From IMG/VR virus record IMGVR_UViG_3300008266_000128, positions 1 through 41,661 of that record: a stretch of 41,661 bases of DNA. One strand, 5' to 3'. The notes under the pieces are model-generated. The model did no database searches. It had not been told where the DNA came from and saw only the letters and a program-made list of their open reading frames with translations. Origin of the DNA: a virus. The position numbers and the translations under genes are program-made. Below, piece after piece: positions 3,854 to 15,123 of the stretch (position 1 is its first letter; every line of letters begins with the position of its first letter).

Positions 3854-5109
3854 TAGACCGCCTTGAAATTACGTTTGGGCAGCGTTTCAATCGTCGCCGC
3901 CTCATTCCCGCCCATGACGCCATATCGGAAGCTGTCGGCACCGTGCGACGCCCAGTCATGCAAAGGACGGCTCTTGAGAACCTGGTGTTTTTCATCGAAC
4001 TCTGAGCGGTACATCCGCAGGCAATCTATGCCGCGCTTGCAGCCCTCACGGTCAAACCAGAAGCGGTTGAACCTCGTGCGAGCTGCGTTGATGCCGTCGT
4101 CTACCTCGTGGCGCGGGACGATCTCGCAAGTGAACCCACGACCTTCCAGAAACTGCTTTCGGCTCTTGCCAGTCTGAAGCTCTCGGGCCTCTGCGTCATG
4201 CGGCAGATAATGCCGGTGAACCGTGAACGGCAGCGCCTTGATCCAATCCACGTAATGGTCAAGACCAAAGCCGTTGTTCTCGTAGTACTTGATCCAGTGC
4301 CATTCCTTACCAACGATCTGGAATATCCAGATGGACATCATGTCGCCAATCCCGAGATCCCAAGAGGCGAACGTGTCTGCGGCGCGGTCATGCGGCACCG
4401 AACAAATGCGCTTGCCTGTCTCCGCCTCTTCGACATCCTTGCCGTAGTAAGAACCCTTCACGGCAGCGTCGAATGAACACTCGTATTCCTGCGCGTACTG
4501 TTCAGGCGTCATGGAGCGTTTTGCGTCCTCTAGCTCTGCCTGATCAATCGCGTTGGTCTGTGATGCCTTCAGCGTGGCCGAGAACCAGTCATCAGCGCCA
4601 AGAGCCTGCTGGTGAATGTCGTGAAAGGCGTTGCGACCTTTCGGAGTGCCGATGAACGTTGCCCAGCCCTTGCGGTCGGATAGCGCAGGACGGATAACCT
4701 CAGGCCATGCGCGCGGATCAATATCGCCCGTCTCATCAATGATGCAGCCGTCCAGATAAAGGCCACGAATGCGGTCGTAGTTCTCAGCGCCGTAAAGCCT
4801 GATGCGTGCGCCATTATGCGGGAACGTAACGCTTAGTTCGCTCTCCGACTTCTGAATGCCTGGGATAGCCGATGTGTATTCCTTGAGGTACGACCACGCC
4901 ACGTCCTTGGCTTGCGTGTAGGTCGGCGCGACGTAGGCAAATCGCGGCTCACGGCCCTGATGTTCAATCGCCCGCTTGATGAGATCCATGATGCAGGCAA
5001 CGGTCTTGCCACAACGTCGATGCGCAACAACGCTTGCCCAACGTTCCTTGCGATTGAGATACCCCCGGAATTGCTCACGAGGGACAATCTCGATTTCAAG
5101 TGTTGGCAT
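3853..5109 (-). CDS. Terminase large subunit (packaging ATPase/nuclease)
   Basis: 418 residues. The motor subunit that pumps DNA into the prohead and cuts it. Walker A is HRRCGKT ending at T36; Walker B is DGCIIDE with the acidic pair D125-E126. The C-terminal nuclease domain shows an RNase H-type first Asp in SWDLGIGD and a late Asp in HDWASHGADSFRY. This is somewhat short for TerL but complete. Its start lies 14 bp inside the end of the TerS-like gene. TerL type combined with a circular, permuted assembly fits headful (pac) packaging, though no pac site can be identified from sequence alone. Confidence 0.93.
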   Translation of the reverse strand: MPTLEIEIVPREQFRGYLNRKERWASVVAHRRCGKTVACIMDLIKRAIEHQGREPRFAYVAPTYTQAKDVAWSYLKEYTSAIPGIQKSESELSVTFPHNGARIRLYGAENYDRIRGLYLDGCIIDETGDIDPRAWPEVIRPALSDRKGWATFIGTPKGRNAFHDIHQQALGADDWFSATLKASQTNAIDQAELEDAKRSMTPEQYAQEYECSFDAAVKGSYYGKDVEEAETGKRICSVPHDRAADTFASWDLGIGDMMSIWIFQIVGKEWHWIKYYENNGFGLDHYVDWIKALPFTVHRHYLPHDAEARELQTGKSRKQFLEGRGFTCEIVPRHEVDDGINAARTRFNRFWFDREGCKRGIDCLRMYRSEFDEKHQVLKSRPLHDWASHGADSFRYGVMGGNEAATIETLPKRNFKAV

Positions 5110-5359
5110 CGCCGCCGATGACTACCTTGATGGACAGCGGGTTATCATCCTCATCGCCACCAATGACGCCCTGAGGAACCTTGCCATCCAGACGGTCAGC
5201 AATCTCCTTGATCGCCTGCACATCGCCGTTCATGGCCTTATCAACCAAAGCGTCAGCGACAGCACGCAGCTTGGTTGTTTCCTTGCCTTCGACCGCCTCT
5301 TTGATGGCGATATTAAGCATGTTGGCGAAGGATTTTTCCTTTGGCGGTCTACCAGCCAT
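5096..5359 (-). CDS. Terminase small subunit-like protein
   Basis: 87 residues directly before and overlapping TerL. It begins MAGRPPKEKSF, a Gly-Arg-Pro-Pro-Lys basic start seen in DUF5681-like and other small terminase or DNA-binding phage proteins, followed by two predicted helices. It probably recognises the packaging site and hands DNA to TerL. The assignment rests mainly on position and size. A weak Shine-Dalgarno (AGGTGA) precedes the ATG. The acidic C-terminal tail (GGDEDDN) could contact TerL. Confidence 0.65.
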   Translation of the reverse strand: MAGRPPKEKSFANMLNIAIKEAVEGKETTKLRAVADALVDKAMNGDVQAIKEIADRLDGKVPQGVIGGDEDDNPLSIKVVIGGDANT

Positions 5360-11769: not shown

Positions 11770-12032
11770 GTCCTAAACCCTCTCAGCGCCTCGGAGACAC
11801 GGCCTTGATTGACGTTGAAATGCCTGCCGATATCGACCTGCGTCATCGTCGGGTTGTCTCGTGCAAACTTCCGTATGTTCGCTGCCTTCTCGTCCGTCAT
11901 CGCGTCAGACGACTTGGGGGCCTTTCGCTTTGGAGCGCGGCGCGTCAACTGGTGGGCCAAGCGCTCTATCTCTGGAATGCGATGCATGTCGGCTATCTGG
12001 AGAAGCCTGTCGCGGATCTCTGGAATTCTCAT
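11766..12032 (-). CDS. Small helix-turn-helix protein
   Basis: 88 residues. The second half has a clear HTH: MTQVDIGRHFNVNQGRVSEAL, preceded by a basic linker RRAPKRKAPKSS. It resembles the DNA-binding modules that rhizobial phages use in regulators. Second HTH protein of the operon; it may control early transcription. The start overlaps the stop of the GIY-YIG gene (ATGA). Confidence 0.65.
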   Translation of the reverse strand: MRIPEIRDRLLQIADMHRIPEIERLAHQLTRRAPKRKAPKSSDAMTDEKAANIRKFARDNPTMTQVDIGRHFNVNQGRVSEALRGFRT

Positions 12033-12496
12033 TCCGCAGCCTCCTGCAAGGTGTTCAACCGTTTCCTCGGGAAAACTAAAATGTTGTGCAGTTCAATCTC
12101 TCTGAGGATCTCTGCTTCGATGTCGAGAGGAGCGCGAACGTTGTCACGGAGACGGGGCAAAGCCCTTTTGCGGCGTCTCTCCGCGTCATCTGCGCTGAGA
12201 GCCATCACCTCAGGACCGATAATGTCCCGAAAGGTTTCGCCAGACGTCAGTCTGGATATGTCCGCTTCTACCAGCCCTTCAAAGTGGAACCACTCACCAT
12301 GCGAGTGATGGGCCTTGTATCGATGGTGCAAAGCACGCTCCAACACATGTTCACCCTCTGCGTGGTAGATCACGTCCAGCTCGAATGGACTCCAGTAGCT
12401 CATCTTCTCGACACGAGACTCGATCATGGAAGTGCAGCCGACCTTGACTGGTCCTCGCATCCCAACAGGGCGAACGAAGTAAACGTGCTTGATCAC
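12029..12496 (-). CDS. GIY-YIG/T5orf172-type nuclease-like protein
   Basis: 155 residues from GTG 12496, which overlaps the Cro-like stop (GTGA) and has GGAGG 7 bases upstream. The N-terminal 80 residues fit the T5orf172/MUG113 branch of the GIY-YIG fold: HVYFVRP (the first strand), VKVGCTS with R42-like positions in ESRVEKMSYWSP, and ERALHHRYKAHHSHGEWF near the end. The C-terminal half is Arg/Glu-rich. Such proteins are found in phages as DNA-binding or nicking modules, but the exact role is unknown. It is translated right after the Cro-like protein. Confidence 0.7.
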   Translation of the reverse strand: MIKHVYFVRPVGMRGPVKVGCTSMIESRVEKMSYWSPFELDVIYHAEGEHVLERALHHRYKAHHSHGEWFHFEGLVEADISRLTSGETFRDIIGPEVMALSADDAERRRKRALPRLRDNVRAPLDIEAEILREIELHNILVFPRKRLNTLQEAAE

Positions 12497-12729
12497 TGCG
12501 CGGCCTCCGTCACAGACACGCGCTGCTCGGTCAGCCATTCAAACGTCACACCTGTAAAGCCACGATCCTTGCTTGCCTTGACAACGTTCGGCCAATGCTC
12601 GGGAGCGATGCTGTTACGGCGGCGCATTTGCCTTGCTGCCTCGTATCCGCAGCCAACGTCAGCCGCGAATTCGGCGATGGTGGGCCACTGATCAATCAGG
12701 GCGGGGATGGATGAAGGTGTGTTGCTCAT
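12493..12729 (-). CDS. Cro-like HTH regulator
   Basis: 78 residues from ATG 12729. The HTH is EFAADVGCGYEAARQMRRR, followed by APEHWPNVVKASKDRG, a pattern common in small phage Cro/YdaS-like regulators. It is the first gene leftward from the repressor operators and diverges from the repressor gene, exactly the place of cro. The predicted promoter would put the start of transcription at or within a base or two of the ATG, and no Shine-Dalgarno is visible, so the message may be leaderless. Confidence 0.7.
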   Translation of the reverse strand: MSNTPSSIPALIDQWPTIAEFAADVGCGYEAARQMRRRNSIAPEHWPNVVKASKDRGFTGVTFEWLTEQRVSVTEAAQ

Positions 12730-12735
12730 GGTCAC

Positions 12736-12764
12736 AACGTACAAAACGTACGAAGCGATTGCAA
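12736..12764 (-). promoter_or_regulatory. Early minus-strand promoter (PR-like)
   Basis: -35 TTGCAA (12764-12759) and -10 TACGTT (12741-12736) with a 17-base spacer, on the minus strand. The -10 falls in the right arm of operator 1, so repressor binding would block it. The plus-strand promoter at 13855-13883 has the same -10 hexamer in the same register to its operator. Confidence 0.6.
12738..12752. promoter_or_regulatory. Operator O1 (CGTAC-N5-GTACG)
   Basis: CGTACAAAACGTACG is an inverted repeat with perfect 5-base arms and a 5-base spacer, overlapping the -10 of the minus early promoter. The same site recurs at 13841 (one mismatch) and 13867 (perfect). Confidence 0.65.
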
Positions 12765-12771
12765 GAAAAAT

Positions 12772-12786
12772 CGTACACACTGGACG
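12772..12786. promoter_or_regulatory. Operator O2 (degenerate)
   Basis: CGTAC-ACACT-GGACG: one mismatch in the right arm. It lies 34 bp from O1, next to a GATAAT hexamer (12786-12791) that may be the -10 of the repressor promoter. It could mediate repressor autoregulation. Confidence 0.45.
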
Positions 12787-12810
12787 ATAATTTTACGCGA
12801 TAAGGCGGGG

Positions 12811-13512
12811 ATGATGAAACCGAAGCATCGATTGAAGCAGGCGAGAGCTGCGGCAGGCTATGAAACGCCTTCCGATGCTGCCCGCGCGCATCCTCGGGAC
12901 ATCAATGTCAACACCCTAATTAGCAACGAAAACGGCAACCGGGATATCTCGCGGAAGGCTGCGGAGAAGTATGCCAGGATCTTCGGCGTAACCGCTGGCT
13001 GGCTTCTCTATGGCGAGGATGTGACGGCAGTCACAGCACAACCGGCTAAAATTGGGGGTATTCCAGAAGTGGAACAACCTAATGCCGGTGCACCAAAAAA
13101 AATAGTTGCGGGTCTCGCTAAAATACCCGTTTATGGTCAGGCAGTGGGGGGCGTTGACGGGGAATTCGTCATGAACGGGAGCTTGCTGTACGAGGTGCTT
13201 GCGCCTCCAAACCTTTCCGAAACAAGCGGTGCTTACGCGGTTGTTGTCTCTGGAGACAGCATGTCGCCGCGCTATGAAGACGGGGAAACTGTCTTCGTGG
13301 ACCCAAAACGACGACCAAAGCGCGGCGATTACGTCATCGCGCAGATCCGTTTGGAGGAGAACGGGCCACTTCTCGCTTACGTGAAGAAGTTCACGCGCCA
13401 CAATGCCGAGGAGCTAGTTTTGGCTCAGTTCAACCCGGCGAAGGAATTGCGCTTCCGATCTGAGAACGTGCATTCGGTTCACGTCGTTGTCGGGATGCTT
13501 TCGGGCATTTGA
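12811..13512 (+). CDS. CI/LexA-type repressor with S24 self-cleavage domain
   Basis: 233 residues. N-terminal HTH (about 7-70: RLKQARAAAGY, then NTLISNENGNRDISRKAAEKYARIF). The C-terminal peptidase S24 domain has the catalytic Ser150 in VSGDSMSPRYEDG and the Lys192 in AYVKKF; the likely cleavage site is the AVGG near residue 112. It would keep the prophage silent by binding the CGTAC-N5-GTACG sites on both sides of its gene and would be inactivated by RecA during SOS. ATG 12811 is used; ATG 12814 is 8 bases from AAGG and equally possible. It lies back to back with the Cro-like gene. Confidence 0.93.
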   Translation: MMKPKHRLKQARAAAGYETPSDAARAHPRDINVNTLISNENGNRDISRKAAEKYARIFGVTAGWLLYGEDVTAVTAQPAKIGGIPEVEQPNAGAPKKIVAGLAKIPVYGQAVGGVDGEFVMNGSLLYEVLAPPNLSETSGAYAVVVSGDSMSPRYEDGETVFVDPKRRPKRGDYVIAQIRLEENGPLLAYVKKFTRHNAEELVLAQFNPAKELRFRSENVHSVHVVVGMLSGI

Positions 13513-13840
13513 GCGTTCGCGCGTTTATATAATCTCTACCTGTAGTTATCTTAACTCTTAAGTCCCTGAAGGATTGAGAGGGAGGGCTCCAGCCAAAGCT
13601 TCCCCCTACCCCATGGAACTAAATCCATGAGGCGGGGAAACCTTGGCATGTCCTGAAGGCCCGAGCCGGGATGGGACACATACCAGGCATGGGCGTTACC
13701 CATGACCGTCCTGATTTTCTGGCAGCGCACTTAAGGACTTTCGCTTCCCGCGCCGTGGGTTTCACCAGCTCGGGAATTGCACCCGGTCGCCCACTGAGTC
13801 GTACAAGTAATCCAAAAAAAAACGCTCCGCAAGCAGAAAT
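13513..13840. other. Gene-free region after the repressor, with perfect hairpins
   Basis: No convincing gene. Two perfect small hairpins, CATGGA-ACTAAA-TCCATG (13612-13629) and CATGGG-CGTTA-CCCATG (13688-13704), suggest structured RNA. TATAAT at 13528-13533 could be a -10 but the -35 is poor. An A9 run lies at 13814-13822. Long frames on both strands here have unnatural composition and no ribosome site. Confidence 0.45.
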
Positions 13841-13855
13841 CGTACAAAACGTACT
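13841..13855. promoter_or_regulatory. Operator O3 (one mismatch)
   Basis: CGTAC-AAAAC-GTACT, with the same spacer as O1. Its last base is the first base of the -35 of the plus early promoter. Confidence 0.6.
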
Positions 13856-13883
13856 TGACCTGCGATCGTACAAAGCGTACGTT
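13855..13883 (+). promoter_or_regulatory. Early plus-strand promoter (PL-like)
   Basis: -35 TTGACC (13855-13860), 17 bases, -10 TACGTT (13878-13883). Operator O4 covers the spacer and -10, and O3 abuts the -35. It would drive the plus-strand recombination and integration operon. Confidence 0.65.
13867..13881. promoter_or_regulatory. Operator O4 (CGTAC-N5-GTACG)
   Basis: CGTACAAAGCGTACG has perfect arms. Centre-to-centre distance from O3 is 26 bp. It overlaps the -10 in the same way as O1 does. Confidence 0.65.
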
Positions 13884-14138
13884 GGGTTCATCAACGCAGC
13901 ACGAAGAAGCCAAGGCCGATCTGCTGCGGAGAGGTCCAACGAAAGGGGGACGCCATGTGAACCGCAGCGCGGGGCGCGCAGGGCCGGAAGAAAAGGCACC
14001 GGACCGAGCCGGATAGCTCTCGGATAGAAAATCTAGGTTTTAGATCCGCATACGTCCTGAGCATGACGCGAAACTGCTTCCACCAATTCAGATGCACCGG
14101 GGCCAGTTCCCCGGCAACCACAACCGAGGAGCAGGCAG
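13884..14138 (+). other. Leader of the plus early operon
   Basis: About 255 bases with no confident gene. A GTG frame at 13962 gives only 19 codons. A perfect hairpin, CCGGGG-CCAGTT-CCCCGG, lies at 14097-14114, directly before the first ribosome site. A 48-codon frame from 14063 lacks a ribosome site and overlaps the next gene. Confidence 0.45.
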
Positions 14139-14351
14139 ATGAGAAGCATTCACGGAATTGGGATTGGAGCAATCCTTTCATCGATGATGGCAGACGCCGC
14201 AATGGTTAACTCCATCAGGTCTGTTCCGATGGCCGACTTCAGCAAGCCGAAGACCCACCGCACCGGCAAGAAATACCCCTTCAGCAGCAAGCGACAGAAC
14301 GACCGTTTCGCCCGCCAGTTGGCTGCCGGCAAGGTCAAGTTCGCCCCCTAA
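14139..14351 (+). CDS. Small basic protein, first gene of the plus early operon
   Basis: 70 residues; GAGGAG lies 8 bases before the ATG. The N-terminal 30 residues are mildly hydrophobic, the rest strongly basic (KPKTHRTGKKYPFSSKRQNDRFARQLAAGK), consistent with RNA or DNA binding. By position it corresponds to lambda N, and it is flanked by RNA hairpins before and after; an antiterminator role is a guess. No family recognised. Confidence 0.55.
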   Translation: MRSIHGIGIGAILSSMMADAAMVNSIRSVPMADFSKPKTHRTGKKYPFSSKRQNDRFARQLAAGKVKFAP

Positions 14352-14404
14352 CCATTCCAAAGCAGGAAGCCCCGCCTCTCCTGCACAACGTGAGGAACAA
14401 GACA
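14347..14404 (+). repeat. 58-bp direct repeat with hairpin and ribosome site, copy 1
   Basis: Identical to 14880-14937. It spans the stop of one gene to the start of the next: TAACC, a hairpin GCAGGA...TCCTGC, then GTGAGGAACAAGACA with the GAGGA ribosome site for ATG 14404. Confidence 0.95.
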
Positions 14405-14613
14405 TGATGGAACACAACAAGGATATCAACGAAATCCTGCTGTGTAAGGTCCACGAACTTAATTGTTCTGCGGACGCAATTCGCAGCCTTGATATTTCGG
14501 AGGGCGACAAAGCTCTTGCTCTGCTCGGGCAGATTACGGACCTGTTTTACGCATCTCATGCGATAGCAAGCGCAAGTGCGGATGCAACGCAGGGTGCCGG
14601 TCATGAGCAATGA
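14404..14613 (+). CDS. Hypothetical small acidic protein
   Basis: 69 residues, MMEHNKDINEILLCKVHELN onward. GAGGA from the 58-bp repeat is 7 bases before the ATG. Helical, with a few Cys and a Ser/Ala-rich tail (ASASADATQGAGHEQ). Its end overlaps the next gene by 11 bases. Not recognised. Confidence 0.6.
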   Translation: MMEHNKDINEILLCKVHELNCSADAIRSLDISEGDKALALLGQITDLFYASHAIASASADATQGAGHEQ

Positions 14614-14884
14614 TAAGCACACGCCTTTGCCGTGGGTCGCGAATGGCCGCTACATCGGCACCCCGAACCACCTGAGCTACGTCGGGGAAGTGCGCGACGA
14701 GAACGGCAATTGGAGCGACACGGTCAAGTCTCGTGGAGACGCCGCTTTCATCGTCCGCGCCTGCAACAGCCATTACGAGCTGCTGGACTGCCTGAAAGAG
14801 GCCCGTAGGCACATCAATGGCGCAGATATTGACCTTGGCTACATCGATGAGGTCATCGCCAAAGCTACCCCCTCCCAAGCCTAA
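14603..14884 (+). CDS. Phage early protein of the 'PLPW...FIVRACN' type
   Basis: 93 residues. MSNDKHTPLPWVANG at the start and GDAAFIVRACNSHYELLDCL in the middle match a widespread small phage protein of unknown function, in which the product begins with TPLPW and ends with a helix after FIVRAxN. AGGG is 8 bases before ATG 14603; the earlier in-frame ATG at 14576 lies inside the previous gene. Confidence 0.7.
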   Translation: MSNDKHTPLPWVANGRYIGTPNHLSYVGEVRDENGNWSDTVKSRGDAAFIVRACNSHYELLDCLKEARRHINGADIDLGYIDEVIAKATPSQA

Positions 14885-14937
14885 CCATTCCAAAGCAGGA
14901 AGCCCCGCCTCTCCTGCACAACGTGAGGAACAAGACA
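14880..14937 (+). repeat. 58-bp direct repeat with hairpin and ribosome site, copy 2
   Basis: Perfect copy of 14347-14404, 533 bp away. It again links a stop codon to the start of the next gene (ATG 14938) and supplies its ribosome site. Identity is exact although the flanking genes are unrelated. Confidence 0.95.
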
Positions 14938-15123
14938 ATGGACCCCGAACGTAAGAAGACAATCAACGGCCACGAAGTCTGCGAGTTTTATTGGGCCGGG
15001 AAGATGGTCGTTTACATCAACCATCACCTGACACCCGAGACGTTTCCCGCCGCCTGCGAGCGTCTTGCCTCGCTGAAAGATGGCGAAGACCCGCTGAAGT
15101 TGCCCGAGGATCACGCCGCCTGA
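14938..15123 (+). CDS. Hypothetical small protein
   Basis: 61 residues, MDPERKKTINGHEVCEFYW onward. Ribosome site from the second 58-bp repeat. Predicted beta hairpin then helix. Family unknown. Confidence 0.6.
   Translation: MDPERKKTINGHEVCEFYWAGKMVVYINHHLTPETFPAACERLASLKDGEDPLKLPEDHAA

Follow-up and report, generated by a model that had tools for sequence, protein, structure and literature searches.

In phage lambda, the recombination and integration genes are transcribed from PL, cro and the replication genes from PR, and each operator contains three sites. The operators of the Rhizobium phage 16-3 C repressor are oL1, oL2, oR1 and oR2 (PMC12429752), and this repressor is the only known regulator of the 16-3 PL and PR promoters (PMC3694467). 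Among the telomere phages, CB of N15 binds two OL sites and three more in the cB-cro interval, and the cI and cro mRNAs of PY54 were both found by RACE to be leaderless (PMC4488713). In a 2025 survey, phiLM21-like prophages of Sinorhizobium meliloti yielded no operator identical to a lambda or 16-3 operator, and it was proposed that their operators differ or have changed (PMC12429752).

The window analysed here is the whole of the virus record IMGVR_UViG_3300008266_000128 (41,661 bp). Short repeats common to both ends of the record, offset by 41,547 bp, suggest terminal repeats and are consistent with the circle assumed in an earlier note on this DNA. With a probability of roughly 0.9, we propose that the window carries the lambda-type lysis-lysogeny switch of a temperate phage of Rhizobiales soil bacteria, with the repressor acting through CGTAC-N5-GTACG operators. 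The switch is of the known lambda kind, with an apparently new operator specificity and its repressor. The order and direction of PL, OL, repressor, OR, PR and cro equal those of the lambda immunity region, as the earlier note had claimed; the mirror image in which it saw them reflects only the orientation of the record. Unlike lambda, this phage has two sites at OR and two at OL instead of three per operator, another operator sequence, a probable leaderless cro mRNA and a structured RNA between the repressor gene and OL. It resembles 16-3 in being a rhizobial phage with two operators on each side, a likeness that concerns the layout. In contrast, N15 and PY54 are linear plasmid prophages of enterobacteria, and the OL of N15 governs repA, whereas OL here precedes a recombination operon.

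The repressor gene (12811-13512, plus strand) encodes a 233-aa protein with a predicted N-terminal DNA-binding domain and an S24/LexA-type C-terminal domain. The protein matched Pfam Peptidase_S24 (E = 1.3e-13) and, over its length, the PHROG 4 transcriptional repressor family (E = 4.7e-29). Pfam called the S24 domain alone and no HTH. The Ser and Lys motifs of S24 were visible in the alignment, in which no clear Ala-Gly cleavage dipeptide was found, and a search against solved structures returned no match. Divergent from the repressor gene lies an ORF of 78 aa (12493-12729, minus strand), which matched no family in the protein family search and is called Cro-like from its position alone. It points toward the replication side, where genes for RusA, an O-like replication protein and a DnaA-C protein follow. 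Past OL, the PL operon encodes a Rad52-type protein, SSB, a NinB-like protein and an integrase, that is, recombination and integration functions. Both sides thus agree with the gene assignment made in the earlier note.

Clusters of one inverted repeat lie on either side of the repressor gene, and all four sites are located where they had been reported. These predicted, strandless operators comprise the perfect OR1 (12738-12752, CGTACAAAACGTACG), the weaker OR2 with one mismatch (12772-12786, CGTACACACTGGACG), OL2, also with one mismatch (13841-13855, CGTACAAAACGTACT), and the perfect OL1 (13867-13881, CGTACAAAGCGTACG), which lies over the PL -10 element. In related loci, the counterpart of OR1 is found at -73/-74, or at -85 in two of them, an equivalent one-mismatch site corresponds to OR2, and OL2 is kept. 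A third, weak OR site with two to three mismatches and an intact GTACG arm occurs at -16 in nine of 11 relatives examined; this third site of most relatives has been lost in this phage. Across the whole 41,661 bp, no site beyond the four was found at ≤1 mismatch. Dinucleotide-preserving shuffles (n = 1000) contained on average 0.44 sites at this threshold and 0.003 perfect ones; four sites anywhere were reached in 2/1000 shuffles, and three sites inside 1.2 kb in 0/1000.

A natural domain swap shows which part of the repressor the sites accompany. Among 18 further loci sharing the repressor N-domain (a count that, like those below, includes near-identical copies and close relatives and does not represent independent trials), all four sites were found in 16 (L005, L008-L014, L019-L021, L023, L027, L036, L041 and L064) and three, at ≤1 mismatch, in two (L015 and L040). 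In this layout, a perfect site lies at about -74 and a site with one mismatch at about -39; the second pair follows 1.0-3.6 kb downstream. The layout persisted where the C-terminal half of the repressor is different (L005, L027) and where the repressor lacks S24 (L020, L021), whereas the sites were absent at 8/8 loci at which mainly the C-terminal S24 domain is shared (L007, L016, L017, L018, L022, L024, L025 and L026). With N-domains at 43-48% identity, the CGTAC layout was likewise absent. The contrasts that count as independent are those between C-terminal contexts and those with unrelated N-domains. The whole records of seven N-domain-sharing phages contained the sites and at most one off-consensus extra. 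Since the sites track the N-domain and not the C-domain, they are tied to the DNA-binding half of the repressor, and the prediction that they are the operators of this repressor is well supported.

The domain swap also bears on whether the sites are chiefly operators of the Cro-like protein, with the repressor acting elsewhere. The Cro-like gene starts beside OR1, and lambda CI and Cro are well known to bind the same sites; additional use of the sites by the Cro-like protein is possible. As their chief function, however, this is very unlikely, given that site presence follows the repressor N-terminal domain across different C-terminal contexts and that the second pair adjoins PL, beyond the repressor gene. 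It is hardly credible that the sites are a chance cluster of a GTAC-rich motif with no regulatory role: although half-sites arise easily because GTAC is self-complementary, the shuffle results oppose chance clustering, the conservation of the sites at fixed offsets argues strongly against it, and the same scaffold recurs with about a dozen other motifs.

The two TACGTT hexamers with 17-nt spacers, which the earlier note had taken as the -10 elements of the outward promoters, are present. The predicted PR (minus strand) comprises the -10 element at 12736-12741, which overlaps one arm of OR1 at a position conserved in relatives, and the -35 element TTGCAA at 12759-12764. The predicted PL (plus strand) comprises the -35 element TTGACC at 13855-13860, between both OL sites, and the -10 element at 13878-13883, with the same spacer length found in 16/21 loci. 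By consensus, however, the hexamers are poor -10 elements: TACGTT is identical to TATAAT at 3/6 positions, and a generic sigma-70 promoter and terminator scan of 12650-14050 flagged nothing. Therefore, the case for these promoters is one of conservation, not of consensus strength. For the repressor, comparison with relatives pointed to a candidate -10 element, GATAAG (12799-12804, plus strand), 6 nt upstream of the ATG. The repressor start in most relatives reads CATAAT-N6-ATG; that of this phage is ambiguous, with an SD-like GGCGGGG also present. Because the cro ATG lies only 6 nt past the PR -10 element (6-9 nt in relatives), the cro mRNA would be leaderless, and the repressor mRNA appears to be likewise in most relatives. 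Neither these likely leaderless starts nor the structured RNA had been noticed in the earlier note. Downstream of PL, a leader hairpin was recognised by inspection at 13896-13927 (plus strand), around CGAAGAAGCC..GGCCGATC and including CGAAGAAGC. It was seen, again by inspection, in this phage, L064, L033, L029 and L006, and thus also in phages with other operators.

From this arrangement, we infer the following course of events. In the lysogen, the 233-aa repressor would occupy the CGTAC-N5-GTACG operators, perhaps cooperatively. At OR1 (12738), it would cover the PR -10 element and keep cro and the replication side off, and OR2 (12772), which overlies the weak promoter region of the repressor itself, probably tunes repressor expression. 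At OL1 and OL2 (13867 and 13841), it would cover the -10 element and flank the -35 element of PL, keeping the recombination/integrase operon off. Upon DNA damage, self-cleavage through S24 would release PR and PL together. Two of the relatives, L020 and L021, encode at about 5001-5300 a repressor with the same N-domain and a short C-terminus without S24, so that induction by self-cleavage is unlikely in these two.

The structured RNA is conserved and lies between the repressor gene and OL on the opposite strand (13565-13795, minus strand), with a core at 13795-13645 and a 3' hairpin extending to about 13565. It is probably expressed from a promoter divergent from PL, for which TTGCGG-N17-TACTTG (13804-13832, minus strand) is the candidate; this promoter is weak in this phage, and a promoter of TTGAC type, directed away from PL, was found at about half of 21 RNA loci. 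The RNA was discovered through blastn matches to non-coding stretches of a Synechococcus phage and a Pseudochrobactrum plasmid prophage, and further copies were taken from viral contigs. In an alignment of 27 distinct sequences, which was fitted to the model and hence leans toward structure, and which includes the probable false positive L063, changes on both sides were found in 23/32 pairs and 96.4% of cells were paired. No shuffle attained these values, and slid partners dropped to 42-53% pairing. An unfitted alignment of eight sequences already showed double changes in 19/53 pairs. Compared with the 96.4% on the minus strand, 80.2% of cells paired on the opposite strand. A plus-strand reading was rejected for this lower pairing and for its poorer consensus energy (-45.6 kcal/mol, against -65.6 kcal/mol for the minus strand). 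The RNA contains two copies of a six-base motif (minus strand), CCUUCAGGACAU at about 13650 and CCUUCAGGGACU at about 13570. Judged by eye, both copies change in concert among loci (CCUUCA, GGUUCA and CAGCAG types), which suggests that they share a partner; pairing partners for CCUUCA within the RNA were also sought by eye, and none was convincing.

The RNA appears to be new. Rfam 15 gave no match at E ≤ 1 in 12000-15000, nothing at the gathering threshold in the whole 41,661 bp and no match at E ≤ 0.1 in eight relatives, and a tRNA/tmRNA search found none. No published description was found in a literature search, which does not prove absence. A first search for the RNA in three genomes found nothing, and the minus-strand model then matched 22/298 Rhizobiaceae genomes, or about 21/298 when L063 (29 bits), which lies in a CRISPR-like repeat array and is probably a false positive, is set aside. 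A sample of 385 genomes from the class gave only two matches, both weak. The RNA loci comprise this phage, L006, L028-L033 and L042-L062, together with L064, which has both the RNA and CGTAC operators. The RNA was considered as a constant partner of CGTAC operators and rejected, since it was absent at the 13 CGTAC-type loci searched, though L064 has both. In L008, L013 and L014, which lack the RNA, a GC-rich hairpin followed by a T run, resembling an intrinsic terminator, occupies its place just upstream of OL.

OL could be read at 21 loci with the RNA. It consists there of two phage-specific inverted repeats, 26-36 bp apart, which enclose a -35-like hexamer; because the hexamer was picked as the best within a restricted region, the telling number is its TTGAC start in 16/21. 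The OL motifs, grouped by eye, represent about a dozen specificities. At 19/20 testable loci, a matrix built from each OL pair detected more sites on the repressor side, at a distance of 1-5 kb and with scores above the maximum of the shuffles; L006 was the exception, and L029 was left out because its flank is too short. With tblastn, an S24 repressor was detected at 16/20 large loci. The CGTAC pairs of this phage and L064 were missed by the automatic OL-pair finder because its arm threshold was too strict for this motif, and they were entered by hand. Prophages of S. meliloti, for example those of strains 4H41 and Ak57, carry predicted operators of a different sequence. This favours the option of the 2025 survey that the operators differ, provided that these prophages belong to the phiLM21-like group. 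The result is a readable operator code for rhizobial prophages: the RNA, lying next to OL, is a landmark that allows the operator specificity of new prophages to be read.

We think it fairly probable that many Rhizobiaceae prophage immunity regions share this undescribed RNA of ~230 nt, transcribed away from PL beside OL and retained through exchanges of repressor and operators among about a dozen specificities, and that it takes part, whatever the specificity, in the lysogeny decision or in early gene control. This raises the question of why the RNA stays beside PL while the repressor and operators are swapped. The RNA at 13565-13795 might instead not be free-standing but serve, in its original context, as the riboswitch-like 5' leader of a minus-strand gene, a possible if somewhat doubtful reading. 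A minus-strand gene does begin shortly past the RNA in L006 and in the Pseudochrobactrum plasmid prophage L033, but in this phage that position is the end of the repressor gene, with no plausible minus-strand gene beyond it, and the sequence flanking the RNA differs from locus to locus.

Two of the compared phages, L006 (Synechococcus phage Yong-M2-251) and L034 (Microcystis phage Mwe-JY08), showed features otherwise found in Rhizobiales phages; the cyanobacterial hosts stated for them may be wrong, or the samples may have been mixed.
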